NCBI GenBank assembly: GCA_028658405.1
Contig: JAKOGY010000011.1
Span: forward strand, 1-44,451
DNA: 44,451 bases
Source: Dolichospermum sp. ST_sed8
Lineage (GTDB): Bacteria > Cyanobacteriota > Cyanobacteriia > Cyanobacteriales > Nostocaceae
Direction of reading: 5' to 3'
In this document: one piece after another, positions 3,601-24,784 of the stretch
Position numbering within the stretch: position 1 is the first letter of the stretch
Layout of the letters: each line of letters begins with the position of its first letter
Notes under the pieces: generated by a model
Database searches by the model: none
What the model was told of the DNA's origin: nothing
What the model saw: the letters and a program-made list of their open reading frames with translations, nothing else
Translations under genes and position numbers: made by a program

Positions 3601-5589
3601 TTTGAAGGTACAGAAACCGCTATTTTCACCCTAGCCACAGGTACAGGTTATGCTCTGGATGTCACCAACAGTGTCACAGTTAATATTGCTGATAATGATT
3701 TACCCAGTATTAGCCTAGCTGTATCTCCTGCCAGCGTTATCGAAGATGGACCAACCAATCTGGTTTACACTTTCACCAGAACTGGAACCACAGCTAATGC
3801 CCTCACTGTCAACTATGGTGTTGGGGGAACTGCCATTTTCAACACAGACTATACTCAAACAGGTGCAACCAGCTTAACTGCAACCACTGGAACCATTACC
3901 TTTGCAGCGGGAAGCAGCACTGCAAGTTTAACTGTTGACCCCACAGCAGATACCACCGTTGAACCTGATGAAACCGTGGTCATCAGTCTAGCAACTGCTA
4001 CAGGTTACACTATTAATACAACAACAGCAGTCACAGGAACCATTACCAATGATGACTCCTCTGCACTGCCTGTGATTACGGTTGCTGCTACTGATGCTAG
4101 TGCGGCAGAAACTGCAATAGGTGTTATGCCTAATCCTAGTGTTTTCACTCTGACAAGGTTGGGAGGAAATATCAACCAACCCCTGACAGTCACCTATAGC
4201 CTGACTGGGACAGCTACTAACGGCGCAGACTATACCAGTGTAGCAAATAATGTTATCTTTGCTGCTGGCAGTAACACGGCGACGGTAACATTAACACCTA
4301 TTGATGACACCATTTTTGAAGGAACTGAAACTGCTATCCTTACCTTAGTCAATGGTACTGCATACACCCTTGGTACAACTGCTAATGCAACGGTCAGCAT
4401 TGCGGATAATGACCTGCAACCTACAGCTAACCTTAGTGCGACCCAAACCATTCTTGAAGGTAATACCAATCCTCAAAATGTCACTTATACGGTGACTCTT
4501 TCCAATACTAGCACTAGAGCTGTTACCGTCAACTATGCTACTGCTGATGGTACTGCTAAGGCTGGTCTAGACTATAGCAATACCACAGGCAGTCTGACTT
4601 TCAACCCAGGGGTAAAAACTCAAGTCATCAATATTCCCATTCTCAATGATGCACTCAATGAGGCGAATGAAACCTTGAACCTCAACCTGACTTCTGCTAC
4701 TAATGCTACTCTTGGCACTACCAAAACAGTTGCGACGACTATAACTGATACTCTGAGGGCTGCTATTACAACTATCTTGCCAGATGGTGTGGAAAATCTG
4801 ACTCTCACGGGAACATCTGCTATCAACGGAACTGGTAATGCAGGGGATAACGTTTTCACAGGCAATAGTGGCAATAACACTCTTACAGGTCTTGATGGTA
4901 ATGACACTTATGCTTTCTCAGTGATAGGTGTATTGGGAACGGATACGATTGTAGAAACGGCAACGGGAGGTATTGATACTATTAACTTTACGGGAACGAC
5001 TGCTGCTGTAAATATGAATTTGGCTGTTACGACTTCGCAAACAGTCAATAGTAATCTGAAACTCATTCTCTTTGGTAACAACGTCATTGAAAATGTGACA
5101 GGTAGTGCAGGAAATGACCGTTTAACAGGTAATGCTCTTGATAACTTGCTGGTTGGTGGTGCAGGTAATGATAAACTGCAAGGATTAGCCGGAAATGATC
5201 TTCTTTGGGGAGGATTAGGTAATGATATTCTGACTGGAGGAGTTGGAAATGATCAATATCTATTCCAAAATAATGGAGTATTTAGCACTGGTTTAGGTGT
5301 TGACTATATTCCCCAATTTGATGCCGGACAGGACAAAATTGTTTTAAGTCTTAGCACTTTCAATGCCATTACTAATACTGTTGGACAGGCTTTAAGTGAT
5401 TTTGCAGTTGTCACTGATGATGAATTGGTGAATGTTAGTAATGCGCGAATTGTTTATAGTCAAAGCACTGGCAGTTTATTCTATAACCAGGATGGTAATG
5501 TTCTGGGTGCAGGAACCGTGTTTGAGTTTGCCCAATTAGGGAATCTTGATATTACTTTAAGTGGTAGTGATTTTAGTTTGATTGTCTAG
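1..5589 (+). CDS. Giant secreted multidomain repeat protein, 5' end missing (beta repeats, PPC, SBBP propeller, Calx-beta, RTX)
   Basis: The frame is open from base 1, so the gene starts upstream and at least 1862 residues are visible. Domain order by eye: a Gly/Thr/Asn-rich beta-strand repeat region resembling autotransporter-type adhesins (about 1-375); a pre-peptidase C-terminal (PPC)-like domain (about 377-480); seven SBBP-type blades, each with a WVKQFGT-like strand (about 484-887), enough for a closed seven-bladed propeller; six Calx-beta domains ending in DND/NDD turns (about 893-1585); and hemolysin-type nonapeptide repeats of GGxGND form (about 1700-1757). RTX repeats and no cleavable C-terminal anchor suggest calcium-dependent folding after type I secretion, and an extracellular or adhesive role; that role is inference. 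No transporter genes are in the window. The domain composition is confident; the ligand is unknown. Confidence 0.9.
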   Translation, partial: TADDSYIGGLFNNTGTVQVKKGTLRLIGGGTNTGSFSIDNGATLKLSSDYNFNAGNSVTGAGNFNIESGIITVNTASTWSNPITLTGGTLTGAGALTISNLLNWNSGTLSGTGKKTVSGTLNLSGSQTLDGTTLETTGATVWTGNGTLYATNAATWNNTSTGTIDLQGDADFYQYSGAQLTFNNAGTLTKSNGTTADDSYIGGLFNNTGTVQVKKGRLRFTGGYTQTAGTTNISGGSLAFDNSPLNLQGGTLNGTGTITGNVNNTGSQVNPGNTIGTLNITGNYSQSGTGILNLELGSATSFDKFAITGAADLGGTLKLNLTSGFTPTIGTKFAVLTYGSATLKSFNNIQGIDISSSLAFAPTSTGNNLTLEVVDQVKDLGAINFLNPQSVTDFVGDTDLSDFYRFNVTTASNVQVKLTNLTTNADVWLVDGLGRTIAKGIKTGTADELFNWAVDTGTYYVKVFRPAAGNNTNYTLQVATSTAIWPVQFGTSGQERNSGVSNDRAGSVFAAGLTTGAFAGNTNAGDTDGYISKYNPDGSQAWVKQFGTSGTDYAIGTGNDNAGNVYSTGYTNGAFTGATNLGSNDGFITKYTSTGTLAWVKQFGTAADDTSFGISVDSNGNSYIIGKTSGAFAGNVTQGAYDAYIAKYDTNGTQTWIKQFGTNQDDETIGVSIDSNDNIYVLGSTVGAFAGNTNASGYDVFVSKYNSSGTQAWVKQLGSSGNNYANINGISTDSTGNVFITGFTDGTFSGNTSLGSYDGFVAKYSTTGTLAWVKQFGTTSEDYSAASKTDSVGNTYVTGWTSGQFTGNTALGGYDGFLAKYDTSGTRLWVKQFGTNSNDYANGLSIDNLGNIYISGWTEGSFPTYTNQGVTDSYIALFDTNGNQLSIPAIPALITVAATDSNAGETATGVTPNPGTFTLTRTRDLSKAITVNYTLSGSATNGTDYSNLTGTVSFAAGVSSATVTVTPTDDNIFEVTETAVLTLTSGTGYILGTTSSATVNITDNDPQPTISINDVAVIEGNSGTTNATFTVTLSNTSSQPITVNYATANGTATTADLDYNAANATISFAPGEISKTVTVAVVGDTKSENPEAFTVNLSNVTNATITKATGVGTITNDDLPIITVAATDSDAGETATGITPNPGAFTVTRNGDLTQAITVNYTLSGSATNGTDYNSLPGTINFAAGASTAIVTVTPTDDNIFEGTETAIFTLATGTGYALDVTNSVTVNIADNDLPSISLAVSPASVIEDGPTNLVYTFTRTGTTANALTVNYGVGGTAIFNTDYTQTGATSLTATTGTITFAAGSSTASLTVDPTADTTVEPDETVVISLATATGYTINTTTAVTGTITNDDSSALPVITVAATDASAAETAIGVMPNPSVFTLTRLGGNINQPLTVTYSLTGTATNGADYTSVANNVIFAAGSNTATVTLTPIDDTIFEGTETAILTLVNGTAYTLGTTANATVSIADNDLQPTANLSATQTILEGNTNPQNVTYTVTLSNTSTRAVTVNYATADGTAKAGLDYSNTTGSLTFNPGVKTQVINIPILNDALNEANETLNLNLTSATNATLGTTKTVATTITDTLRAAITTILPDGVENLTLTGTSAINGTGNAGDNVFTGNSGNNTLTGLDGNDTYAFSVIGVLGTDTIVETATGGIDTINFTGTTAAVNMNLAVTTSQTVNSNLKLILFGNNVIENVTGSAGNDRLTGNALDNLLVGGAGNDKLQGLAGNDLLWGGLGNDILTGGVGNDQYLFQNNGVFSTGLGVDYIPQFDAGQDKIVLSLSTFNAITNTVGQALSDFAVVTDDELVNVSNARIVYSQSTGSLFYNQDGNVLGAGTVFEFAQLGNLDITLSGSDFSLIV

Positions 5590-7656: not shown

Positions 7657-9237
7657 TCACTTTTCCGCCACAGTCCACCAAGCCAAACCATAAGATTGAA
7701 TAGCCTTATTCACCTGCTTTCTAAATTGCACTCGAATTTTATAATTACCATTAGTAGAAACTGGGCAAAAAATATGTTCAACACTATCAACTTCACTCAC
7801 AGAATCACAAACAACAACTTCATTATTTTTAACTAAATAAACATCAAGATTATTTAATCCTTTATCTTTAAATGTTTCTCCAATATCATACTCCTGATTA
7901 TTATCTTTATCATCCAACTCTACCAAACGATCCCAAATTAAAGTAATAGCGACAAAACTATTTTTTTTCAACCTCTTTTCTAAAATATATTCTTTAGCAG
8001 AATTAGCATTAACAGTACCATAATCCCAACCAATAGGCGGCACAGGTGCGTTAGATTTCCATTCACCACCATTCAATTGTTGATAACCTCGAAAAGCATT
8101 TAAATGACCCGCTCCCATTTGAGCATCTAGGGGAATTTTAGGATTTTTATAAGCGTCCGTTGCCAACCAATCTTGATTTTGTTTATCAACTAAAGTCCTC
8201 GTCATTCCCAACCGTAAACCATCACCACTATCTTGAATTTTATCTGCGGAATTGAGTAAAATAGATTTCATTACTTGATGACGACGAGCATTAGTAGTCC
8301 AATTTGGTTGTTTAGTTCGCAACTGTCTATCAACAAATTCCTGTAATAAAGCCACAGTCGCTGTAACCTGTGGTGAAGCAAAACTCGTACCAGTGGATTT
8401 ATTTAATTTACCATCAGGATTAAGTAAAGGAATATTAGTACCAGGAGCAACTAAACTAATCGCGCTTCTTTCATTAATATTAAATTCTTTCCCAGCCAAA
8501 CGATTTTCTATACCTTGATTAACACTAGCCAAATTAGAAACGTGAACCTTATTAAAAATTCCCTCTCGTTCCGATGAAAAAGCCACATTAATTGCGTTAA
8601 AATTGTCTGTAGGAATGGGAATCCCGCCTTTGCCTTGATTACCTGCAATAGTATACACAACATCATGAACACGACTAGACCAGTCAATACATAAAGTTAG
8701 TAAAGCATTACCATCTAACATAGCTTCTGGTCGAGGATCACGATCAAGAGGTTCACCAAAACTCAAATTAATAGCCCGGACATCACCACCATTTTGTAAA
8801 GCAATGTGTTGTGCTGATAAACACTCCTCCGGTTGACCGATTTTTTTTGTAGATCCTACAGCCGAAGAATATAGTCGGGCATTTGGGGCCACACCAGGAA
8901 AAGCCTTATCTTGACTCACCATGACACCAGAAACATTATAGGCATGAGGATCAACACCAACATTCGATTTAGCGGGGACATTGCGTGAAAATACCGCAAA
9001 TGGAGATACAGCCCGATTTTTAGAAACAGCCTTATCCCAGCCAAACATCCCCGGACGACCAATTTCCACTTGACCAATAGCAATTTTGCGCCCAGTCAAA
9101 TTATAAGGAGCTTGGTGTAATTTAAGTGCATCAATACCATTAGCACCTAAAAAATTGGCAAGCTTCACCCCAGCAAAGACTGGTAAAGTCAAACAAGAAA
9201 AACCTAAACCCCAAAAAATTAACCAATTTCTATTCAT
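7657..9237 (-). CDS. Secreted subtilisin-like (S8) serine protease with atypical Asp region
   Basis: Residues 1-22 form a signal peptide (MNRNWLIFWGLGFSCLTLPVFA). The subtilase core follows: His98 in HAYNVSGVM (the HGTHVAG site), Asn200 in AGNQG (oxyanion hole) and Ser285 in GTSFASPQV. The first catalytic site, normally V-x-D-T/S-G, reads IAIGQVEIGRPG (about 53-63), so the usual Asp is missing and Glu58 is the nearest acid. A C-terminal beta-rich region (about 400-526) follows the catalytic domain. Family knowledge says S8 proteases need Asp-His-Ser, so activity is uncertain. It is transcribed away from rpe and has no evident partner. Confidence 0.8.
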   Translation of the reverse strand: MNRNWLIFWGLGFSCLTLPVFAGVKLANFLGANGIDALKLHQAPYNLTGRKIAIGQVEIGRPGMFGWDKAVSKNRAVSPFAVFSRNVPAKSNVGVDPHAYNVSGVMVSQDKAFPGVAPNARLYSSAVGSTKKIGQPEECLSAQHIALQNGGDVRAINLSFGEPLDRDPRPEAMLDGNALLTLCIDWSSRVHDVVYTIAGNQGKGGIPIPTDNFNAINVAFSSEREGIFNKVHVSNLASVNQGIENRLAGKEFNINERSAISLVAPGTNIPLLNPDGKLNKSTGTSFASPQVTATVALLQEFVDRQLRTKQPNWTTNARRHQVMKSILLNSADKIQDSGDGLRLGMTRTLVDKQNQDWLATDAYKNPKIPLDAQMGAGHLNAFRGYQQLNGGEWKSNAPVPPIGWDYGTVNANSAKEYILEKRLKKNSFVAITLIWDRLVELDDKDNNQEYDIGETFKDKGLNNLDVYLVKNNEVVVCDSVSEVDSVEHIFCPVSTNGNYKIRVQFRKQVNKAIQSYGLAWWTVAEK

Positions 9238-9468
9238 AGCCGCTTGTTACTCCCTTCCCAAATCAAGATTTATCTTCTTCCTTCCTTCCTTCGTGTCCTT
9301 CGTACCTTCGTGGTTCATTAAATCTATATTCTTCCGGTAGTAAAGGACTAGGGAAGAGATAACAGAGAAAAGTTTTCTTGAAAATTTTAATTTTTGAATT
9401 AATTTTTAACAATTTCCCATATTTTGTTACGATGCTTACAGACGAAGACGCTTAAAAACCCACTAGCC

Positions 9469-10176
9469 ATGACCCAAAATTCATCTCAAAAACCTATAGT
9501 TATTTCTCCTTCCATCCTATCAGCAGATTTTAGCCGTCTAGGTGACGATATTCGCGCCGTAGACAAAGCTGGAGCAGATTGGATTCACGTTGATGTAATG
9601 GACGGACGTTTTGTACCTAATATTACAATAGGTCCTCTGATTGTGGAGGCGATTCGTCCGATTACAACTAAGCCACTGGATGTCCACTTGATGATTGTGG
9701 AACCAGAAAAGTATGTAGAAGGTTTTGCTAAAGCTGGCGCTGATATTATTTCCATACACGCAGAACATAACGCATCTCCTCACTTACACCGCACTCTGGG
9801 ACAAATCAGAGAACTCGGTAAGAAAGCTGGAGTTGTCCTCAATCCTGGTACACCTTTAGAGTTAATTGAATATGTTCTAGAATTGTGCGATTTAGTGCTA
9901 ATTATGAGCGTTAACCCCGGTTTCGGTGGTCAAAGCTTCATTCCTAGTGTAGTTCCTAAAATCCGCAAATTGCGTCAAATGTGTGATGAACGCGGTTTAG
10001 ATCCTTGGATTGAAGTTGACGGGGGACTAAAAGCTAATAATACTTGGCAAGTTTTGGAAGCAGGAGCTAATGCTATTGTAGCGGGTTCGGCTGTTTTCAA
10101 TGCTCCTGATTATGCTGAGGCGATTACCAATATCCGTAACAGTAAGCGTCCGACTCCAGAATTAGCTGCTGTTTAA
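9469..10176 (+). CDS. rpe: Ribulose-phosphate 3-epimerase, 235 aa
   Basis: Interconverts ribulose 5-phosphate and xylulose 5-phosphate in the Calvin cycle and pentose phosphate pathway (cytoplasm, metal-dependent TIM barrel). Visible signatures are [13 protein letters not shown] at the N-terminus, [21 protein letters not shown], the phosphate-binding [12 protein letters not shown] and the VDGG motif. The ATG at 9469 ([11 protein letters not shown]) gives the usual cyanobacterial length; a longer in-frame start at 9424 adds unrelated residues. A strong terminator follows within 30 bp, so it is probably monocistronic. Confidence 0.96.
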
Positions 10177-10203
10177 TTTAATACTTGTGATTAATTGAAA
10201 GCT

Positions 10204-10236
10204 AGATCCTCGATTTCTTTGGGAAGTCGGGGATCT
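10204..10236 (+). terminator. Intrinsic terminator downstream of rpe
   Basis: Arms AGATCCTCGATTT and AAGTCGGGGATCT pair over 13 bp (two G-T) around a short loop and are followed at once by ATTTTATTTTT. The GATCCCCGACTT-type sequence recurs at many cyanobacterial gene ends. It separates rpe from the operon that starts at 10425. Confidence 0.75.
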
Positions 10237-10424
10237 ATTTTATTTTTGATAAAATTTGATGCACTCTGGAATTTGGTTTCAGGGTGATATTTGCGTAATT
10301 TTTCTTGGTTTACTGCAATATAAATATAAAATAATTTCAGTAATTTTGACGTATTGGTTATTTCTAATTGTGATTTAATGAGATTAGTTGAGTAGCTTAG
10401 TATAAAAATTGTTAAGGTGTCGAG

Positions 10425-12914
10425 ATGGGGCAATTCTCAGACTGGATGATAGTTGGTGCTTTTACTCTTGGGTTTGGTATAACTGGTTCTCTGACGGGTA
10501 GAGTAGATGCAGGTTTGTTAGGAAGCACTACAGGAGCAATTATAGGGGCTTCTGTTGCCAGTAAATTACAAGATGATAAACAGCGTAATACATTAATTGA
10601 ATTGGATAAGCTAAGGGAACTGGTAGCTACACAAGAGGAATTAATAAAGTTAAAGCAACAAGAGGTAATTCTAAAAACAAGGGTAGAAGCGTTACGAAAA
10701 GAGGAAGCAGCACTAGCAGCAGTTAGAGGACAATATCAGGAAAAAAGAGCAGAATTACAACAGGTTGATCAAAAATTAACTCCCCTCAAGCAGCAACAAC
10801 AAGAACTAGAAAATCGCATTGCTGTAATTAATCAAAAAAACCCTGATTTATCTCATCTTGAACAACTGCAAGAACAGATTGAACAATTTAAACTTGAGAA
10901 AAGTGGGTTACAAGGCCAACTTAATGTGCTAACTTCTCAAGTTGAATCTTTAGAATCACAAAAGATAAATCTCAACGGTGTTGAAGCAGAATTAGCTGCT
11001 AAAAAAGTAGATTTAGATAGTCTAAGAACAAGAATTCAAGAACTGCAAACTCAATCTCAAGAAATAGAACATCGTGGGGCTGAATTAGAATTTGTCCGCA
11101 CTACCTATGATGGAATTGTTAGTCAAAAACAAAATTTTGAAGAGAGAATTAATCAGTTAAAACCACAAATAGATAGGTTGGAATCTGAGAAACAACGCAT
11201 TTTACAAACAATTCAAGACAATCAGAATGAGTATCATAAAGTTGAAGTATTACGACGTTCTCAGGTTGAATTTTTAGAATCACAAAAGATAAATATTAAT
11301 AATATTGAATCAGAAATAGCTACTAAAAATGTAGATTTAGATAGTCTCACTACAAAAATTCAAGAACTGCAAACTCAATCTCAGCAACGCACATCTGAAT
11401 TAGAATTTTTACGGATTACTTATGATGGAATTTTTAACCAAAAAGAAAGTTTTGAAGAAAGAGTTAATCAGTTAAGACCAGAAATAGACAGTTTAGAAAC
11501 TGAAAAACAACGCATTTTACAAGCAATTCAAGAAAACCAGAATGAGTATCACAAAATTGAAGAATTGCGGCAAAAATTACACGAATTAAAAATTGCTATT
11601 AGAGATAAAAAATCGGAATTACGAGAACTGGAAAGAGAAATTGAGCATTTGCAGGGTATTAAAGCTGCTCTAGAAGAAAATAATGCTAAGTTGGGACAAA
11701 AAAAAGAAGAACTTCAAGAAGAAATTAGAAGATTCAAAGGAGAAATCACCGAAATAGAAAATAGTGCTAAATTAGCATTACAATCTCTGAGAGAAAAACT
11801 TTGGACTGAACTACCTAACAATAAATTACAACTAGAAGAAAAAGAATTTATAACGGGTTTTATTCATAGTATTAAATCTCAAGGATTAACTTTTTCTGAA
11901 CGGGTAATTAACGCATTTCATACATCCTTAAAAGTCCAAGATATTTCTGCTTTAGTGATTTTAGCGGGAATTAGTGGGACTGGAAAAAGTGAACTTCCAC
12001 AACGATATAGTCATTATATTGGAGCGCAATTATTAACATTAGCTGTACAACCACGCTGGGATTCTCCACAAGATTTACAAGGGTTTTATAACTATGTTGA
12101 GAAGAAGTTTAAACCCACTGATTTGATGAGGGGACTGTATCAATATAATAAAGATTCAGAAATGGAAGATAGAATTGTCATTGTGTTACTAGATGAAATG
12201 AATTTAGCTAGAGTTGAATATTATTTTAGTGAATTTTTGTCTAAGTTAGAAAGTCGTCGTAATCATGCAACTTATTTAGAGATTGATGTTGGTAGTTTAC
12301 GTATAAATGAAAATGAACGTCGGTTACAAATTCCTAATGCTTTTTTGTTTGTGGGAACAATGAATGAAGATGAGACTACACAAACTCTATCAGATAAAGT
12401 ATTAGATAGAGCAAATGTTTTGACTTTTGGTAAACCGCAAAATTTAAAATTACGTCAAGAAAATCAAATTATGAGTAGCAATAATCAACCTTCAGAATAT
12501 TTACCATATTCTTATTTTAAAAGATGGATTATAGTCCCAGATCCTAATTCTGAAGTTGTCAAGAAAGTTAAATATTTCTTGAATGAAGCTAATGAAGTTA
12601 TGGAAAAAATTGGTCATCCTTTTGCCCATCGTGTTTATCAAGCTATTACTCAATATGTGGTTAATTATCCCGGAGTAGATAATATTGATGCACCAGCTTT
12701 TAAGTTTGCGCTTGCTGATCAATTTGGACAAAAACTATTACCAAAACTGCGAGGTGTGATGGTTGATGAATCACAGCAAGAATTAGATGAACTCGAGAAA
12801 ATTATTTCAGATATTGATGATAAACCATTAATTACAGCTTTTCAGAAAGCACGAAAAGGACATTATGGACAATTTAGTTGGCAAGGTTTAGTTTATGAGG
12901 ATAAACAAGCATAA
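10425..12914 (+). CDS. McrB-like AAA+ NTPase with glycine-zipper N-terminus and long coiled coil, 829 aa
   Basis: First gene of the operon, with an AAGG ribosome site 7 bp before the ATG. Residues about 5-48 form a Gly/Ala/Thr-rich hydrophobic stretch of glycine-zipper type, possibly a membrane anchor. Residues about 55-460 are nearly continuous coiled coil, including a tandem duplication of about 105 residues. The C-terminal AAA+ domain is of the McrB/AAA_5 branch: Walker A GISGTGKS (515-522), Walker B IVLLDEMN (586-593) followed by LARVEYYFSEFLSKLE, and a sensor-like GTMNEDE (644-650) where McrB GTPases have MNxxD. I infer a motor that works with the DUF2357 gene (1-nt overlap) like McrB with McrC. 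GTP versus ATP use cannot be told. Confidence 0.85.
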   Translation: MGQFSDWMIVGAFTLGFGITGSLTGRVDAGLLGSTTGAIIGASVASKLQDDKQRNTLIELDKLRELVATQEELIKLKQQEVILKTRVEALRKEEAALAAVRGQYQEKRAELQQVDQKLTPLKQQQQELENRIAVINQKNPDLSHLEQLQEQIEQFKLEKSGLQGQLNVLTSQVESLESQKINLNGVEAELAAKKVDLDSLRTRIQELQTQSQEIEHRGAELEFVRTTYDGIVSQKQNFEERINQLKPQIDRLESEKQRILQTIQDNQNEYHKVEVLRRSQVEFLESQKININNIESEIATKNVDLDSLTTKIQELQTQSQQRTSELEFLRITYDGIFNQKESFEERVNQLRPEIDSLETEKQRILQAIQENQNEYHKIEELRQKLHELKIAIRDKKSELRELEREIEHLQGIKAALEENNAKLGQKKEELQEEIRRFKGEITEIENSAKLALQSLREKLWTELPNNKLQLEEKEFITGFIHSIKSQGLTFSERVINAFHTSLKVQDISALVILAGISGTGKSELPQRYSHYIGAQLLTLAVQPRWDSPQDLQGFYNYVEKKFKPTDLMRGLYQYNKDSEMEDRIVIVLLDEMNLARVEYYFSEFLSKLESRRNHATYLEIDVGSLRINENERRLQIPNAFLFVGTMNEDETTQTLSDKVLDRANVLTFGKPQNLKLRQENQIMSSNNQPSEYLPYSYFKRWIIVPDPNSEVVKKVKYFLNEANEVMEKIGHPFAHRVYQAITQYVVNYPGVDNIDAPAFKFALADQFGQKLLPKLRGVMVDESQQELDELEKIISDIDDKPLITAFQKARKGHYGQFSWQGLVYEDKQA

Positions 12915-14464
12915 TGAAAATTTATCCTAGCCTATTTGCTTATCTAAATCAATCTCCTTTAATATCAGATATTCCTCAATTACAAGCTAGTCAACGTCCG
13001 ATCATTGTTCTAGAATCAGAGGAAATTCTATCAGAAACATCTTGCTTAATTCCTATTACTGATAGAGTTTATGAAATTGGATTTCCTTATTTGCAACCTA
13101 CTGATTTACAACATCATAATTTTGAGTTACAGTCTGGATTAACTTTAGATATTTCTGGAAAGTCTTATATCTTGCAGATTAGTGATGAAATATTAGATTT
13201 AGAGACTATTAAGGAAGAAGCAGAAATACAGGAATTAGAAAATAGATTGGGTGAACGTTTAGATAAAACAACGGCTAACTTAATTCGGTTATTTATTGGA
13301 ATGTTTACAGATATATTTAGTCATCAAAAAACAGTAAATACCAATATCATATTAATTGAATTACCAGAAAAATTAGAATTAGTAAATATTGAAGATGCAA
13401 ACTTACCGATTATAATTAGTTTAGATAAAAGATACCAATTGCGGCGAAAACTAGAAGCAATTAGTGATAAATTACGTCATCAACTCAGAAGACAAGCAGA
13501 ATCAATGTCTGTGGGTAAAATTCAAGAAATGGATAGTTATTGTTTGCGCGATTATGTCCGCAGACCAGGTTTAACTGCTGTGGAAAAAGCAGGTTCAAAG
13601 CAGCAGTTGATGGGTATCCAACGCTATCAAGATTTTAATACACCTGAGAATAAATTTCTAGTTTATTTTAGTCAAATTTTACATTTGAATTGTTTTCAAT
13701 ATGAGAGAAGTGGAGCAAGTCAATTTAGAGAGACAATTAGAAAAATCAGATTAGTAATTGATTTATTTAAACAACAACGGATAGTAAAAACTATTCAAGA
13801 TAGAAGCTATAAATTTACTCAGCCAAATTATGTTTTACAACAAAATCCTATATATAGAAGTTTTTATGAAGCTTATTTAGAATATTTGCGAAAGAAAAAT
13901 GAAAAGGAGAAGTTATGGACTTTCAGAAATGCGTTGTTAGCTGACAGTGTTTATATTTATTTAACAGCATCATTGCTGAAGTTTCAGGGAATAGATGTAG
14001 ATGCTAATTTAGCTATTAATGGTAGTTTAACTCCCGATAAAGGATGTTACCTTAATAAAGATCAGAATATTATAGTTAAGGTATTTCTAAAAAATCAAGT
14101 TTATGTATTTAGTTTAAAGAAACCACCTAAAACAATGATGTTTGATTGGGTATTAACTTTAGAAATTCACAATTTATATTCTCTGGAGTTAAAAACAAAA
14201 AAATTAGTTTTTCCCATTTGGGTGTTTTGGTATCGTCCCAATGATGATGTTATTTCTCAGATGAAAATATATTTACATAAATTAAGTAAGAATCATATTT
14301 TTGGACAAGGAATAGTATTTTATTTACAAAATCAAAGTCAAGAATTGATAACTGAAGAATTACCTTTTGTGAAATTATCTGAAAATTTCACAGAACAAGG
14401 ATTTTCTAGCACTGTTGAAATGATGACAAATTTAATTAAAAAAGTAGTGGATTTATCGGTATGA
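12914..14464 (+). CDS. DUF2357-type McrC-like protein, 516 aa
   Basis: Its start overlaps the McrB-like stop (TAATG) and its stop overlaps the next start (ATGA), so the three genes are tightly coupled. The middle of the protein (about 150-345) has the DUF2357 look: a basic helical segment RQAESMSVGKIQ, then TPENKFLVYFSQIL, an arginine-rich helix, QQNPIYRSFYEAYLEYLRKK and LWTFRNALLADSVYIYL. In related proteins this is joined to a PD-(D/E)xK nuclease; here the C-terminal beta-rich part (about 370-490) has FDWVLTLEIH and LELKTKK, but I cannot assign a clean catalytic set, so the nuclease may be degenerate or absent. The McrC-like role rests on family knowledge plus position. Confidence 0.7.
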   Translation: MKIYPSLFAYLNQSPLISDIPQLQASQRPIIVLESEEILSETSCLIPITDRVYEIGFPYLQPTDLQHHNFELQSGLTLDISGKSYILQISDEILDLETIKEEAEIQELENRLGERLDKTTANLIRLFIGMFTDIFSHQKTVNTNIILIELPEKLELVNIEDANLPIIISLDKRYQLRRKLEAISDKLRHQLRRQAESMSVGKIQEMDSYCLRDYVRRPGLTAVEKAGSKQQLMGIQRYQDFNTPENKFLVYFSQILHLNCFQYERSGASQFRETIRKIRLVIDLFKQQRIVKTIQDRSYKFTQPNYVLQQNPIYRSFYEAYLEYLRKKNEKEKLWTFRNALLADSVYIYLTASLLKFQGIDVDANLAINGSLTPDKGCYLNKDQNIIVKVFLKNQVYVFSLKKPPKTMMFDWVLTLEIHNLYSLELKTKKLVFPIWVFWYRPNDDVISQMKIYLHKLSKNHIFGQGIVFYLQNQSQELITEELPFVKLSENFTEQGFSSTVEMMTNLIKKVVDLSV

Positions 14465-16038
14465 ATGAACAAGAATTTTGGCAGAAATTACAACAATTAA
14501 TATATCAATCTGGTGAAATTTCTGAAACTACCCAAGCGCAATGGGAGAAATTAGTAGAAATTCATGATTCTCCATCATTACCTACACAATTAATTATAGA
14601 AACTGTTTGTAATGGTGCAGTGTATTTAAACGAGCGATCGCATTTAAACTTTCCTGCAATTACTCCTCATATTTCTATCAGTGGAAATCAACAAATAGCA
14701 TTAGAAATGGCACTTTCAAATAGTCCTATTTCTTTAATTTGTGGTTCAGCAGCTACAGGAAAAACTCGCATTGTAAATAATCTTGCTCATGCAGCTATCA
14801 ACCATTCTCATAGAGTGCTAATTTTAACTCATCACACTGCATCCTTAGCAGCTTATCGCAACTTAACAACTTATCCATTTTTACTATCTCAAGAGCAAGA
14901 TTATCATCAATGGATAATTAATCAATTGCGTTCTCAACATTTAGCACAACCGCAGATGGATTATTTACCATTACATCTGCTACCAGATGCAGAATTAGCA
15001 AAACTGCGAACTCCAGCAAAACTAGAAAAATGGTTGCCAATTATTGAAGATAATTCATATCAACAATTAACAGAACTATTAAAACCTGAATATCCTCACT
15101 TACGACAACCACGCATTCAACTATTAGCTTATCGTCTCAAACAGTTAGCACCATTATTACAACAACAATTAAAATTGAGTCAAATTTATAATAATCTTTC
15201 AGAACAGGGAATTAAAGAAATTGCTGATCAACTCATGGAGAATCCGCAAATCCCTATTGTGGGAACTGTTGAGGAATTTATGCACCCCAAAAATCAACTC
15301 TTATGGCAAACAAACTTTGATTTAATTATTATAGAAGAAGCACAATATCTTACCTGGATAGAATTAATACTATTATCGGGATTATGTCAAAAGCTGGTTT
15401 TGTTTGGTGAAGAAATATCAAAATATTATCCTAACTCTAACAAAACAAATTTGTTTTTTGCTAATTTATTTGACTGTTTTAAATGGTTAAAACAGCATTT
15501 ATTTCCAACTTATGTTTATCAATTAAAAGAACAATTTAGACTACATCAAGAAATAGCTAAACTTGTTTATCCTGGCATTTCTAATGATTCAATTCAAACT
15601 CAATCCTTAAATATTAATTCTTATCTTCCTGAAACTCCAAAAAGATTAGTGTGGCAAGATGTACCTCATGAAAATGCAGGAGAGCAAATTATTAAATTTA
15701 TTCAAAGTTTGAATACAGAAATAAGTTATCAAATCGGAATTATTACATTTTCGATGCAAGAGCGAGATTACCTGAAAGATAATTTATCCAAAGACTATGA
15801 TAAAATATTTATTGATATAGCAACAGAATGGACTGGAAGTGAACGAGAAATAATCATTGTCAATTGTTCAGATCATCCTGAAAATATTCCGGTTGAATAT
15901 ATCAACACAGCACTAACAAGAGCAAAAGATTATTTGTTCTTATTTGGTGATTATGACTTATGGAAAAAACATAATTCCCCAATTCAATCATTATTATATC
16001 AACGAGAATTATACAAAGAACGTTTAGTTATTATATAA
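14461..16038 (+). CDS. SF1 (Upf1/Dna2-like) helicase or ATPase, 525 aa
   Basis: Motifs in order: Walker A GSAATGKT (95-102), a motif Ia-like THHTASLAAYRNL, Walker B/motif II IIIEEAQ (289-295, Glu in place of the usual Asp), motif III-like LVLFGEE, motif IV-like YQLKEQFRLH, and motifs V-VI as TEWTGSEREIIIVN and NTALTRAK (482-489). This pattern fits the Upf1/Dna2 branch of superfamily 1, which unwinds RNA or DNA. It is compact, without extra accessory domains beyond the helical insertion at about 150-270. It overlaps the DUF2357 gene by 4 nt. In the operon it probably remodels the nucleic acid acted on by the other proteins. Confidence 0.85.
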   Translation: MNEQEFWQKLQQLIYQSGEISETTQAQWEKLVEIHDSPSLPTQLIIETVCNGAVYLNERSHLNFPAITPHISISGNQQIALEMALSNSPISLICGSAATGKTRIVNNLAHAAINHSHRVLILTHHTASLAAYRNLTTYPFLLSQEQDYHQWIINQLRSQHLAQPQMDYLPLHLLPDAELAKLRTPAKLEKWLPIIEDNSYQQLTELLKPEYPHLRQPRIQLLAYRLKQLAPLLQQQLKLSQIYNNLSEQGIKEIADQLMENPQIPIVGTVEEFMHPKNQLLWQTNFDLIIIEEAQYLTWIELILLSGLCQKLVLFGEEISKYYPNSNKTNLFFANLFDCFKWLKQHLFPTYVYQLKEQFRLHQEIAKLVYPGISNDSIQTQSLNINSYLPETPKRLVWQDVPHENAGEQIIKFIQSLNTEISYQIGIITFSMQERDYLKDNLSKDYDKIFIDIATEWTGSEREIIIVNCSDHPENIPVEYINTALTRAKDYLFLFGDYDLWKKHNSPIQSLLYQRELYKERLVII

Positions 16039-16047
16039 ATAAAAATC

Positions 16048-16566
16048 ATGAAATTACAAATTCAACTATCAGGAAAATTTCATAGTTTACTATTAACTGG
16101 TACAGATAAAATATCTGTATCTTTAGGTGATTTAATGAGAGAAGTGCAAGCTGTAGCTACTCAAAACCGCAGAAGAACACCGCAATTATTACGTCAATCT
16201 TTTGGCTTAGATTTCATCCCAGAATCAGTGTTAATTAACTTGTGTAAACAAGCAAATGATCTTACTAAAGAAAGTGAACTTTATCAAGTACCAGTTCTGA
16301 AATTATTACAACCTATTGAATCACAATTAAATAACCAAGCTGTTAACACATATTCTTATCAATTTACATCTAAAGAAGCTAATTTGCAACTGACAGCAGA
16401 TGATCCACAAATTCCCATTTTTATTAGTAATATTTCCGAACAACCAGGAATTTATAACCTGACTATAGAAAAACCTAATTATCCTGGTTTAGATCATGAT
16501 TATGTTCAAACAATATGGAATGATAGTAGAGACTATTGGCAAAATTTACCCAACGCTGATTTCTAG
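16048..16566 (+). CDS. N-terminal part of a PLD-family protein, closed early by a frameshift
   Basis: This 172-residue frame follows the helicase by 9 bp. It has no recognised domain: a short beta-rich start (MKLQIQLSGKFHSLLLTG), a helical middle and another beta-rich part. It stops at 16564-16566, while the next frame carries the PLD motifs. Reading through with one base fewer at the CCC of 16551-16553 joins ...DYWQNLP directly to TLISSYIIEDEEL... of the following ORF. The combined product would be about 453 residues (16048-17410). I therefore treat it as the 5' part of one broken or recoded gene. Confidence 0.7.
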   Translation: MKLQIQLSGKFHSLLLTGTDKISVSLGDLMREVQAVATQNRRRTPQLLRQSFGLDFIPESVLINLCKQANDLTKESELYQVPVLKLLQPIESQLNNQAVNTYSYQFTSKEANLQLTADDPQIPIFISNISEQPGIYNLTIEKPNYPGLDHDYVQTIWNDSRDYWQNLPNADF

Positions 16567-17410
16567 TTATATTATTGAAGATGAAGAACTAACAGAATTA
16601 ATTTGTCAAAAATCATTACAACTACCCCAAAGAGTTTGGATATTAACAGACTTGAGAAATGAAGTTTTAGATCGCATTGATGAGCAAATATCAGATAATG
16701 TATCTATATCAGAACAATACCAAATCACAGATGAGCGCAAAAAGACTTGTTTAAAAATGCTCCTAAATGCAAATATTCCTATTCGTAGCGGTGGTTTTCA
16801 TTTGAAAACTTATATTTCTGAACAGTACGCTTATTTAGGTTCTTGTAATCTTACTCGCGGAAGTTTAGATTTTAATAAAGAAGCTGGAATAGTTTTTATT
16901 AACAATTCACAACATCAATCATTAATTAATTTATTTCAGCAATTTTGGCAAAAATGCAGCAAAGATGAAGTTATACCTGATAGTAATAATGATGGTTTTC
17001 GTTTACGTTCTCTTTTTCATAATAGTCAAGATAAATATACCAACTATCCTAATTTTTTGACATCATCACAATATCAAAGAGATTTAATAGAACAACTGAG
17101 AAATTTTAAAGGAGAGGTAAAAATTTACAGTCGCAGTTTTCAACCTTCAGCAGAGATAGCAAATTATTTGCGTTTGTTAAATACAAACATTTTTATTGAT
17201 TCGAGTATATCAGTTATAAATCAAAACTTTAATATTCAGAAAATTAAGTATCTTCATGCTAAGATCACTATTTTAGGCAATCAAATAGCGTATATCGGGG
17301 GAATTAATTTTAATTTTGGTGATTCATATTCCCATGATTTAATGTATAAAACCACCGATACAAAGGAAATTAATCAAATAATTAGTAAACTAACATCATT
17401 ACATTTATAA
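16496..17410 (+). CDS. Phospholipase D-like (HKD) nuclease domain protein, 3' part of the split gene
   Basis: Two HKD-like half-sites are visible: HLK (His102, Lys104) followed by GSCN (115-118), and HAK (His254, Lys256) followed by GGINF (268-272). The Asp that often follows HxK is Glu in the first half and absent in the second. Two half-sites in one chain are typical of PLD-superfamily nucleases and phosphodiesterases, including those in defence loci. The ATG at 16496 overlaps the previous ORF by 71 nt and its first ~20 codons look out of frame with real protein sequence; the true start is probably 16048 by frameshift. The next gene starts 3 bp after its stop. Confidence 0.8.
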   Translation: MIMFKQYGMIVETIGKIYPTLISSYIIEDEELTELICQKSLQLPQRVWILTDLRNEVLDRIDEQISDNVSISEQYQITDERKKTCLKMLLNANIPIRSGGFHLKTYISEQYAYLGSCNLTRGSLDFNKEAGIVFINNSQHQSLINLFQQFWQKCSKDEVIPDSNNDGFRLRSLFHNSQDKYTNYPNFLTSSQYQRDLIEQLRNFKGEVKIYSRSFQPSAEIANYLRLLNTNIFIDSSISVINQNFNIQKIKYLHAKITILGNQIAYIGGINFNFGDSYSHDLMYKTTDTKEINQIISKLTSLHL

Positions 17411-17413
17411 CCT

Positions 17414-19786
17414 ATGACTAGATTATTCAATTTGGAATCTTATATTGATGCTTGTCAATATGCTCGCGTATTTCAAGATTCATCTTATCAGTTAGTTTCT
17501 CAAACTAGAGAAACATACAAATTTTTATTAGATAAATATGCTGAACATCGTTATTTATTACCACCAATTATTAATAATCATCATTCATCACAGTTAACTA
17601 TTAATCCCAGTAAATTAGATTATCTATCAATGGGAACTGAACTAACTCAGGGAGAAAAACCGCGTTTATTTATTATCAGTGATACATTAGATTTAATGAC
17701 GCTGAGTACAAGTAATATTTTAGGACGTAGAGACGGTTATCTGTACAGCAGTGCTTATTATTATTGGAATTATTACACAGAAATTAATCAACATCTAATC
17801 ACAAAACCATTAGTATTTATTAATTTAGATAATTTTGGTATTTTGACTTTAATTCCTATCAAGTTGATACAACCAGAAAATAGTCATTATAAAATTCCCA
17901 TTCTCGATACTAGAAATAAGATACATCTCGATCATAGTTATGATTGTATAGGAACATATACAAAGATTTGTAATAGTGTAGCTGGAATTTTATTAAATCA
18001 ATTTTCATCATTGTCTATAAATAATGAAACTGTTGAACATTTATCTGGTTATTTACAGAAGATTAACTTTTTTCAGCTTATTCAGTCTTACGTAAATCAA
18101 GAATCTGTAAATTTGATTATTGAAATAAACAACAATAATCAGATTTTTTGTAAGCAAGTTACTATATCAATATCAGAAATTGCTAATATTTTATGTCAGC
18201 ACATTAACTTTGACGATATCAATCAACTAGAAAATCAATATCCTCAATATCAGTTTATATTAGTTAGTCAATATAATATTTTTGAGAAAATTAAAACATA
18301 TTTACCAAATTTCATTTGTCCTCATCCTAGTTATCAACAATTTCCCGAAATATGGACAGAAAAAAATCATCTAAACTTTCCTTTATTTGCAATTTATTTA
18401 GATGAGATTAAATTTGCGGTTGCTATTTATGGTAAGAAAGAATGGATTAAATTATCTGATGAAAAAGATGCTATTTCTTACGAAGGTAAACCTACAGTTT
18501 TAATAGGGAGTATTCCCAGTTTAAAACAAGATTTTGTCCGTATTCCCCAGGGCAGAAGCAGTGCTAATTTACCTATTAGAGTTAATGCTCATGATTACTG
18601 TATAAATGGTATTCCGCAAGATTACAAAATTGAAATTGAGAACTATCAAGGAACAGAGGAAATTCGTGTTCAGATTCAGTTTAATTTACAACCTGGTTCT
18701 TTTCCAGAACTCAAAGTTAGAGATTTAGAAAATAAGTATAAAATCAAGACTAGCTTCGTCAATACAGAACAGACAAATGATAGCACTCAGAAATATTATA
18801 GTCATATTTTACCTGAACAAATTACAGCAAATCGTCAGCAAAGATCATTGTCTCAGATTGAAAGATTAAAAAGACGTAATGATTTTCAAGACTTTATAAA
18901 TGATTTAAACCATATTTCTAGTACATTAGATAAAATCAGTAAACAGGGTTATACGAGAAATAACTATAATTCTCTAAATCAAAATATTAACAATGCTAAA
19001 AACAAAATTAACCAACAACCAGATTTACTACAGTTTATAGATATTTCCTCAATTGATATAGTGGTTATTGAACTAATAGCAACCTTAAATCAAGCAAATC
19101 TTTCTAGGTTAGTTGATATTGTATATAATACACTAACTTCTAATCAGCCTTTAAACACAGATAAAAAAGATTTGTTGGTGTATACAATCATGTTCACTGG
19201 TAAATTATATCGTTTTTCTGAATATCTATTATCAGACAGATTATTCTTTCAATTACAATTACAGTTTAATAATGCTATTAATATTAGAGGTAATCTATCA
19301 AATGAATATCTACAATGTTTAGCTAGAATAGCAGAAAATGCAGAATCACAACGTCAATATTTCAGTTTATTTGACTCTCAATATAATTTAGAAATTAGTC
19401 AATATCTATGGGGATATGGCAATATTCTACTTTGGTATTATGATTTTAATTCATCAGAATTATTTCTAGATTATCAACACCATTTCACAAAAATAATGAA
19501 TTACTTACTATCTAAATATTATACTAGATTTTCTGATATTTATAAAAAATTTGCCTTCCTATCTCTAATTTATCTCCTAACTTTTCGCGCTCATGACTCT
19601 AAATTTTGTTGTAAAGATTCCCAAGAATTTCAATTAGCAAATAAAGTTATTGAACATTTCCAGCACGATAGAATCATGCTAAATACAGTTAGTAGAGAAA
19701 AACCTTTAAATCAGTATTTTCAAGAAATGATTGAAGGTACTTCCACCGCAAATGAAATAGAAAATCTTCTCCAAGTTCCTCTATAA
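17414..19786 (+). CDS. Unknown 790-aa protein, last gene of the McrB/helicase/PLD operon
   Basis: Not recognised. There is no signal peptide, membrane segment or Walker motif. The N-terminal part (about 1-240) mixes strands and helices; a middle segment (about 350-450) is beta-rich, with VRIPQGRSSANLPIRVNAHD, a run of alternating polar/hydrophobic strands and LQPGSFPELKV; the C-terminal 300 residues are helical and rich in Asn, Gln and Tyr. Position (3 bp after the PLD gene, same strand and AT-rich composition) ties it to the system. It may be a target-recognition or scaffold subunit, but that is inference from context only. Confidence 0.75.
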   Translation: MTRLFNLESYIDACQYARVFQDSSYQLVSQTRETYKFLLDKYAEHRYLLPPIINNHHSSQLTINPSKLDYLSMGTELTQGEKPRLFIISDTLDLMTLSTSNILGRRDGYLYSSAYYYWNYYTEINQHLITKPLVFINLDNFGILTLIPIKLIQPENSHYKIPILDTRNKIHLDHSYDCIGTYTKICNSVAGILLNQFSSLSINNETVEHLSGYLQKINFFQLIQSYVNQESVNLIIEINNNNQIFCKQVTISISEIANILCQHINFDDINQLENQYPQYQFILVSQYNIFEKIKTYLPNFICPHPSYQQFPEIWTEKNHLNFPLFAIYLDEIKFAVAIYGKKEWIKLSDEKDAISYEGKPTVLIGSIPSLKQDFVRIPQGRSSANLPIRVNAHDYCINGIPQDYKIEIENYQGTEEIRVQIQFNLQPGSFPELKVRDLENKYKIKTSFVNTEQTNDSTQKYYSHILPEQITANRQQRSLSQIERLKRRNDFQDFINDLNHISSTLDKISKQGYTRNNYNSLNQNINNAKNKINQQPDLLQFIDISSIDIVVIELIATLNQANLSRLVDIVYNTLTSNQPLNTDKKDLLVYTIMFTGKLYRFSEYLLSDRLFFQLQLQFNNAINIRGNLSNEYLQCLARIAENAESQRQYFSLFDSQYNLEISQYLWGYGNILLWYYDFNSSELFLDYQHHFTKIMNYLLSKYYTRFSDIYKKFAFLSLIYLLTFRAHDSKFCCKDSQEFQLANKVIEHFQHDRIMLNTVSREKPLNQYFQEMIEGTSTANEIENLLQVPL

Positions 19787-19898
19787 TCTAAAGACTATCA
19801 TAATAGCAAATATATCACTTTTCAGCTAAAGTCCGTAGGGTAGGTTAAGCGCATTTATGCTAAAATGCCATTACTGTACTCTGTAAGGAGTTTTCTGT

Positions 19899-19943
19899 AT
19901 GGCTAACGTTACTTACGATGAAATTTTTGGAGCAGTCCTGTAA
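19899..19943 (+). pseudogene. 14-codon gene remnant with a good ribosome site
   Basis: TAAGGAG precedes an ATG that opens MANVTYDEIFGAVL and then stops. The opening resembles the first residues of small cyanobacterial antitoxin-like proteins, and a T in place of C (TAA for CAA) would lengthen the frame by only a few codons. It is probably the 5' stub of a deleted antitoxin gene. The rest of the 19787-20080 gap holds a HIP1 site and no other gene. Confidence 0.3.
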
Positions 19944-20080
19944 TTTGGTAATCGCTAATGCTAACTCTTCTAGTATAAGTGGCGATCGCAAATCGCTCTA
20001 TAGAAATCGCTAACTTATCATTTTTCTTTGTTTTATTCCTTTGCAAAATCAGTTAAGATGAATCTGATCACTCTAGGTAA

Positions 20081-20563
20081 ATGACTATGAGATGGGAAGA
20101 AGTTTGTGAAAATAAACAATTACAAGATTTACCCTTCAAGATTGAATTGAATAAATGGGGGCAAATCATCATGAGTCCTGTAAAGATTAAACACTCATTT
20201 TATCAAGGAAGAATCCAACGTCTATTAGAATCTTTATTGAAAACTGGTGAAGTCATGCCAGAATGTGCAATTAATACATCAGATGGAGTTAAAGTTGCTG
20301 ATGTAGTTTGGTGTTCAGACCAAAGATTTGATCAAATTCAAGATGAAATATCAGCTTCTATAGCCCCAGAAATTTGTATAGAAGTTAAATCCACTGGTAA
20401 TACCTTTGAGGAAATGGAATTTAAGAAAAAATTATATTTAGAATCTCAAGCCATTGAAGTATGGTTATGTAATGAACAAGGTCAAATAAAATTCTATAAT
20501 GAACAAGGTGGACTATCACAATCTTTGTTAGTTCCTGACTTTCCTAACCAAATTAAACGATAA
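20081..20563 (+). CDS. Uma2-family (DUF820) putative restriction-type nuclease, 160 aa
   Basis: Uma2 proteins have a PD-(D/E)xK nuclease fold and are greatly expanded in cyanobacteria. Visible here are an N-terminal ELNKWGQIIMSP segment, a KVADVVWC strand with the Asp, and APEICIEVKS with the E-x-K pair, followed by a Lys-rich helix and IEVWLCNEQGQIKFY. The length is slightly short for the family. An alternative ATG lies two codons downstream (20087). Whether these proteins cleave DNA in vivo is not settled. It stands alone between the large operon and moaA. Confidence 0.82.
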   Translation: MTMRWEEVCENKQLQDLPFKIELNKWGQIIMSPVKIKHSFYQGRIQRLLESLLKTGEVMPECAINTSDGVKVADVVWCSDQRFDQIQDEISASIAPEICIEVKSTGNTFEEMEFKKKLYLESQAIEVWLCNEQGQIKFYNEQGGLSQSLLVPDFPNQIKR

Positions 20564-20622
20564 TTTCACTAGAAGTTATCGGTATAGTTCCAAAAAAACA
20601 TAGTTAGAGATAACCCTTAAAT

Positions 20623-21627
20623 ATGACAACCAGCGAAACTATAAACCAGGTGGACTACCTCCGTATCAGTTTAATTGATCGCTGCAATTTCCGTTGTCAA
20701 TACTGTATGCCAGCAGGTGCAGAACTTGACTATATCGTCAAACAGCAATTATTAACTGATAAAGAACTGCTTACCCTCATTCAAGAAGTCTTTATCCCTG
20801 TTGGTTTTACCCGCTTTCGCTTAACCGGTGGTGAACCCTTACTTCGTCCTCATGTAGTTGATTTAGTCGAAAAAATTGCTCATCTTCCCGAAACTCAAGA
20901 TTTAGCAATGACTACAAACGGGTTTTTACTTGCTCCCATTGCCCAAAATCTCTATGATGCAGGTTTAACAAGAATTAATATAAGTTTAGATTCTCTAGAT
21001 CCACATATATTTGAAGAAATAATCGGTAATAATGGACGTGGACGCTGGCAACAAGTATGGCAAGGAATCCAGTCTGCTTATGAAGTAGGATTCAGCCCAT
21101 TAAAATTAAATGTAGTCGTAATTCCTGGCGTTAATGACCATGAAATCTTAGATTTGGCTGCTTTAACAATTGATAAACAATGGCACGTCCGATTTATTGA
21201 ATTTATGCCCATTGGTAACGGAGACTTATTTAGCGATCGCGGTTGGATATCTTCAGCGGATTTACGTCAATCTATCCGTGAGCGTTGGGGCTTAACAGAA
21301 TCCCAAATTCGTGGTAACGGACCTGCCGATGTATTTCAAATTCCTGGGGCTAAAGGAACAATAGGATTTATTAGCCAAATGTCAGAATGTTTTTGCGATC
21401 GCTGTAATCGGATGCGTCTGAGCGCAGATGGTTGGCTACGTCCCTGCTTATTAAACGAAACAGGTCAAATTGACTTAAAAACCGCTTTACGGGCTGGCAT
21501 GAGTACAAATGAATTGCAAGCAGAAGTCAGAAAAATTTTAAATATTAAATCAGAAATAAACTTTAAGCAACGCGACTCTGGTACTGTCGGCACATACACC
21601 CGTACTATGTCGCAGATTGGTGGTTAG
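20623..21627 (+). CDS. moaA: GTP 3',8-cyclase MoaA, 334 aa
   Basis: The radical-SAM enzyme that, with MoaC, starts molybdenum cofactor synthesis from GTP. The N-terminal [4Fe-4S] site is C21-x3-C25-x2-C28 in [12 protein letters not shown]; the second cluster ligands are C258, C261 and C275 ([13 protein letters not shown]...RPC). TGGEPLLRP and the C-terminal Gly-Gly are also present. Full length. The cofactor serves nitrate reductase and other enzymes of a nitrogen-regulated cyanobacterium. No other moa/moe genes are nearby. Confidence 0.97.

Positions 21628-23358: not shown

Positions 23359-24784
<1,426 letters not shown>

Follow-up and report, generated by a model that had tools for sequence, protein, structure and literature searches.

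What kind of system is encoded by the tightly packed genes between rpe and moaA in the cyanobacterium Dolichospermum sp. ST_sed8, and is it still complete in this genome? The stretch that we analysed (hereafter the window) comprises 44,451 nucleotides of contig JAKOGY010000011.1. The original prediction, made from the letters of this stretch, described a five-gene operon with an McrB-like motor, a DUF2357 protein, an SF1 helicase, a PLD nuclease and a subunit of unclear kind, and likened it to the coiled-coil nuclease tandem (CoCoNuT) systems. According to the main text of Bell et al. 2024 (PMC11090510), Type III-C CoCoNuTs, predicted from sequence mainly in Cyanobacteriota, have a CnuE with two PLD domains, a separate Hsp70-like CnuD and an inactivated CnuC nuclease, and are devoid of TerY-P. 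As described below, the CoCoNuT assignment is upheld by the NxD motif, the long coil and the further components, and we conclude with a probability of about 0.85 that the operon belongs to Type III-C and that its effector gene has been disrupted in ST_sed8.

Organization of the operon

The cluster spans 10425-19786, between rpe and moaA, with all open reading frames (ORFs) on the plus strand. The same-strand cluster proposed originally is real, but it consists of six ORFs (829, 516, 525, 172, 304 and 790 aa) rather than five, the PLD gene being present as two overlapping ORFs. Neighbouring genes overlap by 1 and 4 bp or are 9 and 3 bp apart, and the GC content is 29.8% in the operon and 38.7% in the remaining window, so that the close packing and AT-richness noted at first sight are borne out by measurement. 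A profile search of the window ORFs gave matches to AAA_5, DUF2357, AAA_11/AAA_12 and PLDc_2, in agreement with the predicted domains, and no Rfam RNA was detected in 9000-21000. The features are as follows.

10203..10237, plus strand: terminator-like hairpin after rpe, upstream of the operon
10425..12914, plus strand: cnuB, 829 aa; hydrophobic Gly-rich hairpin, coiled coil, McrB-like GTPase
10934..11566, plus strand: tandem repeat in the cnuB coil, 2 x 315 bp; 105 aa, or 15 heptads, per copy
12914..14464, plus strand: cnuC, 516 aa; DUF2357 (McrC N-terminal-like)
14461..16038, plus strand: cnuH, 525 aa; UPF1/SMUBP2-like SF1 helicase
16048..16566, plus strand: cnuE 5' fragment, 172 aa; N-terminal domain, with a frameshifted tail at the end
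16554..16555, plus strand: cnuE deletion junction; 338 bp of locus L035 (8804-9141) absent
16496..17410, plus strand: cnuE 3' fragment, 304 aa; most of both PLD domains and both HKD-type motifs, homology from ~16553
17414..19786, plus strand: cnuD, 790 aa; Hsp70-like NBD/SBD and C-terminal helical region

The order B-C-H-E-D, whose conservation the original prediction had proposed to examine, is kept in about 18 other cyanobacteria, among them Anabaena, Trichormus, Nodularia, Hassallia, Calothrix, Mastigocoleus, Planktothrix, Spirulina, Microcystis and Pseudanabaena, and the arrangement is therefore not due to chance.

Assignment to Type III-C

In CnuB, a coil of ~400 aa (about aa 50-480), which matches SMC and other coil profiles, precedes an AAA_5 domain at aa 511-662 with the Walker A motif GISGTGKS from aa 515 and the NxD motif GTMNEDE near aa 643. 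GTMNEDE was found in all 20 cyanobacterial CnuBs examined (the window and 19 others), and the main text of Bell et al. (PMC11090510) names NxD instead of NxxD in the GTPase as the hallmark of the CoCoNuT branch. Together with this motif, the clustering of the GTPase domain with other long-coil NxD GTPases supports the earlier placement of the AAA+ gene in the McrB branch. In a GTPase-domain tree built without the published reference set, the cyanobacterial sequences fell on one side of a branch with modest support (77/96); rhizobial Type III-B-like sequences were nearest to them and Type II/III-A-like ones next. When the GTPase domain alone was searched against PDB with phmmer, no relative was obtained, and phage records yielded just two weak partial matches, both to the GTPase.

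The remaining components were examined in the same manner. CnuC matches DUF2357 above the cut-off and shares the core IQEMDxYCLRDY...PG with its homologues (16 sequences), but no invariant or recognisable D-(D/E)xK motif was found in the C-terminal half of the 16 aligned sequences, and a CnuC profile retrieved nothing meaningful from PDB sequences. CnuH matches profiles of ZNFX1, SMUBP2, DNA2, SEN1 and UPF1 and carries motif I (GSAATGKT), motif II (EEAQ), WTGSER and ALTRA, with just ~95 aa ahead of motif I and a helical insert of ~160 aa between motifs Ia and II; since motif II reads EEAQ and not DEAQ, the strength of its ATPase is uncertain.

CnuD, the 790-residue product that the original prediction could not place in any subtype, showed no significant match in sequence searches of Pfam, NCBIfam, PADLOC or PDB. 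An AlphaFold model built with 19 homologues (pLDDT 79; the first 110 residues poor) was used in a fold search: all 50 PDB matches listed were Hsp70-family chaperones or chains from complexes with them, including DnaK (best E-value, 8e-8), BiP, Sse1, Ssb and Ssz1. The TM-scores of these matches were low (about 0.2-0.35), probably due to extra domains in the long query and a differing lobe orientation, and so the call relies on the uniformity of the matches and on the E-values. By fold comparison alone, then, the modelled CnuD is Hsp70-like, and a separate Hsp70-like CnuD gene is a marker of the subtype, which places the system in Type III-C. In three other loci (L031, L032 and L033), only the last 40-100 CnuD residues are left, apparently as relics of lost operons; we considered whether these C-terminal pieces form a separate small protein and judged them, short of proof, to be remnants beside unrelated genes.

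The window agrees with every Type III-C feature that could be checked: five components in one cyanobacterial operon with no TerY-P genes seen in the window, an NxD GTPase with a long coil, a UPF1-like CnuH with a helical insert and without an SmpB-like/RTL N-terminus, and an Hsp70-like CnuD as its own gene. CnuC, with DUF2357 and no recognisable D-(D/E)xK motif, and CnuE, with two PLD domains but no wHTH recovered by fold search and with a split gene in the window, resemble the described proteins in part. It departs from the described type in two respects, namely the split of cnuE by a 338-bp deletion and a hydrophobic hairpin in CnuB. Three other systems share some of these features. First, Type III-B-like loci on rhizobial plasmids (L073, L077) share a hydrophobic N-terminal segment and the NEDE motif of CnuB, a homologous CnuC and helicase, and a separate downstream gene in the CnuD position, but their order is helicase, extra gene, B, C, D, they have no annotated PLD nuclease, and their CnuD is not alignable by sequence, with no link to the window CnuD in sequence profiles. 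Second, Type II/III-A-like loci on Klebsiella and Photobacterium plasmids (L074, L075) also encode a long-coil NxD GTPase, a DUF2357 protein and a UPF1-like helicase; however, their order is kinase-H-E-B-C, the CnuB N-terminus is not hydrophobic and a separate CnuD is absent. Sequence profiles gave no link between the window-type CnuE and the III-A-like CnuE. Finally, McrBC Type IV restriction has the same pairing of a GTPase motor with an McrC-like partner, whereas the window has NxD in place of the McrBC NxxD, a coil in place of the DNA-binding domain and an McrC homologue without a nuclease motif.

Disruption of the nuclease gene cnuE

In intact relatives, CnuE is the product of a single gene (546-602 aa). 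The 172-aa ORF of the window corresponds to residues 1-171 of intact CnuE and the 304-aa ORF to the part from about residue 284. Anabaena sp. UHCC 0204 carries the operon at the same rpe-moaA site, with a CnuH 97% identical to that of the window, and relative to this strain a segment of exactly 338 bp is missing from the window at 16554/16555; its loss removes ~113 codons and shifts the frame. The HKD nuclease gene of the original prediction does keep its two PLD motifs, but it is split in two and disrupted. Programmed frameshifting was considered and discarded, as 113 codons are absent and the relatives use a single frame.

The deletion was seen in one draft assembly of 532 contigs, and the junction is clean, without a clear repeat; both points would suit an assembly or sequencing artefact in an otherwise intact operon. 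However, the flanks are 99% identical to the relative right up to the junction, and the missing 338 bp were found nowhere else in the genome assembly, which also excludes a misplaced piece. We regard an artefact as quite improbable. It may also be supposed that the two ORFs form a working split nuclease, of which the 172-aa and 304-aa parts are made apart and act jointly. The 3' ORF retains both HKD-type motifs, has a possible start at 16496 and shows a dN/dS of 0.29 (cnuE_b), and neither part contains further stops. Against these points stand the ~113 aa that are present in all intact relatives and gone here: in the model of an intact CnuE, which matches two-domain PLD proteins including the PLD3/PLD4 nucleases, the deleted segment covers the linker that joins the N-terminal domain to PLD domain 1, along with the initial strand and helix of the latter. 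(The fold search did not recover the elongated or distorted wHTH predicted for CnuE.) In addition, among the 13 of 218 family genomes that carry cnuE, 11 have a near full-length frame and one has a partial match (G533), and so the window has the only split among complete cnuE genes of the family; that cnuE can be lost is indicated by an IS66-broken copy in another genome. A split nuclease is therefore hard to credit, and a disrupted gene with likely functional loss of CnuE, as judged from the model, is the reading that we retain.

A candidate membrane anchor in CnuB

The glycine-zipper N-terminus remarked on in the original prediction is present and conserved, in the form of a two-segment uncharged hairpin. 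In the window, this Gly-rich, hydrophobic hairpin lies at aa 7-46, with borderline hydropathy (1.28 over 19 residues). Two uncharged or nearly uncharged Gly-rich hydrophobic segments precede the coil in 19/19 Type III-C CnuBs with complete starts (L023, the start of which lies beyond the end of its sequence stretch, was left out). Two near-identical rhizobial CnuBs, classed by us as Type III-B-like because of their gene order, begin with a single clear hydrophobic helix (ILLLVLTAVALVALIGA), whereas three Type II/III-A-like CnuBs (Klebsiella, Photobacterium and Caballeronia) have charged N-termini with neither hairpin nor hydrophobic helix. The coil itself varies: the 315-bp (15-heptad) tandem duplication of the window is absent from the close relative L035, the CnuB of which is exactly 105 aa shorter.

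The main text of Bell et al. (PMC11090510) contains no mention of a hydrophobic hairpin or of membrane anchoring for CnuB; there, "transmembrane" refers solely to CoCoPALM/FtsB, EssC-type ATPases, ShdA and a 4-TM protein, and "glycine zipper" solely to a III-A accessory protein. From its conservation, we infer membrane anchoring of CnuB as a candidate new feature. Our tentative proposal, to which we give somewhat less than even odds, is that Type III-C and III-B CoCoNuTs are membrane-tethered, with CnuB anchored by an N-terminal hairpin (III-C) or single helix (III-B) and a coil length variable by whole heptads, unlike Type II/III-A. The conserved hydrophobic N-terminus would then suggest where the complex sits, and the GTPase, helicase and nuclease would work near the membrane. 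The Gly-rich hairpin could also be a membrane effector itself.

Distribution and decay

A profile search of genome contigs returned 21 loci, all cyanobacterial (21/21), and presence was patchy, with the operon in 16/386 genomes of the phylum and 13/218 of the family. A complete operon is located on plasmid pSYSX of Synechocystis PCC 6803 (SGL_RS01425-01445; L072:10840-19992), the Cnu proteins of which have 29-46% identity to the window proteins; Synechocystis, Nostoc and Anabaena are not named in the main text of Bell et al. (PMC11090510). Type III-C is known only from sequence, and because PCC 6803 is amenable to routine genetics, the pSYSX copy makes the prediction directly testable. An annotated ArdA antirestriction gene lies ~4 kb downstream of the pSYSX operon.

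At least one core gene is disrupted in 8 of the 26 assessable loci, that is, those in which all five genes are expected within the sequence stretch, a count that draft assemblies may inflate. In addition to the window (E), the affected loci are L026 (E, by an IS66 insertion), L029 (B, C and E), L030 (most genes), L034 (D missing; C, H, E and most of B kept), L043 (GTPase domain of B lost; H, E and D kept), L045 (B, a segment with the P-loop region lost) and L052 (H). Two contig-edge loci, L041 (H lost) and L055 (multiple losses), are extra to the 26. Independent losses of different subunits thus leave CnuH and CnuE in place where the GTPase domain of CnuB (L043) or the whole of CnuD (L034) is gone, which argues against a simple antitoxin role of CnuB or CnuD towards the nuclease; genomes of this kind should not persist if either protein served to restrain a constitutively toxic CnuE. 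In the cnuH-cnuE interval of L023 (5949-8360), there are two 80-aa ORFs that resemble the CnuE N-terminus and a DDE transposase fragment.

Genomic site and proposed role

The neighbours of the operon are housekeeping genes (rpe, moaA and rpsD), and the window of this heterocystous cyanobacterium also contains hetR (23359-24258); these surroundings are not a large defence island, although the content of the rpe-moaA interval varies across the genus. It is almost empty in G428 (L114), and holds Uma2 alone in G101 and G147 (L110, L112), PIN and DUF433/DUF5615 toxin-antitoxin-like genes with Uma2 in the closest relative G062 (L104), and, in G070 (L113:1161-5576), the first 34 cnuB codons after rpe followed by a GrpE-Hsp70-DnaJ cassette. 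This pattern of gain and loss fits a defence cassette in a small hot spot, not a large island. The G070 cassette encodes an Hsp70, a DnaJ-TPR protein and a GrpE-domain protein, the last with a hydrophobic N-terminus, and occupies a site that elsewhere holds the operon with CnuD. Downstream of cnuD in the window, ~13 codons of an antitoxin-like gene are left at 19898-19936 (MANVTYDEIFGAV); G062 has the antitoxin-like gene in full, along with a PIN-domain gene (L104:10547-11211, minus strand), and thus about 610 bp seem to have been deleted here too.

In the intact system, CnuB would be held at the inner membrane by its N-terminal hairpins, reach out via the long coil and, by analogy with McrBC, form a GTPase ring that CnuC stimulates. 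The Hsp70-like CnuD may recognise aberrant or viral RNA or a translating complex, as predicted in the main text of Bell et al. (PMC11090510), and CnuH would travel on RNA or single-stranded DNA and feed CnuE, which would cleave viral or host nucleic acid and thereby stop the infection. In this genome, with the linker and the beginning of PLD domain 1 (its first strand and helix) gone, we expect cleavage to be abolished or severely reduced. That the system sits at the membrane, forms a complex, targets RNA and serves in defence is what we infer, and RNA targeting and phage defence are predictions for the window system as they are for Type III-C in the main text of Bell et al. (PMC11090510).

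The same components might instead serve in quality control of RNA or proteins, as a membrane-linked complex centred on the Hsp70-like protein and the UPF1-like helicase, with no role in defence. The conserved hydrophobic N-terminus of CnuB, the housekeeping neighbours on the chromosome and the GrpE-Hsp70-DnaJ cassette at the same site in G070 would all be in keeping with such a role. Nevertheless, the patchy presence in the phylum and the family, gain and loss at a variable site, frequent disruption, a plasmid copy near an ArdA gene and McrBC ancestry fit defence better, and we consider quality control unlikely.

Selection at the locus

Compared with Anabaena UHCC 0204, dN/dS was 0.17-0.44 for the cnu genes and 0.04-0.09 for rpe and moaA, from which the cnu genes appear to be under purifying selection in this lineage, constrained yet evolving faster than the housekeeping genes. 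In the same comparison, dS was 0.06-0.09 for cnuH and the 3' part of cnuE but 0.25-0.38 for cnuD, rpe and moaA, and the low values in 14461-17410 suggest recombination there. Elsewhere in the window, 652-5589 encodes a 1645-aa protein with Calx-beta, beta-propeller (SBBP) and RTX repeats, which is probably secreted.
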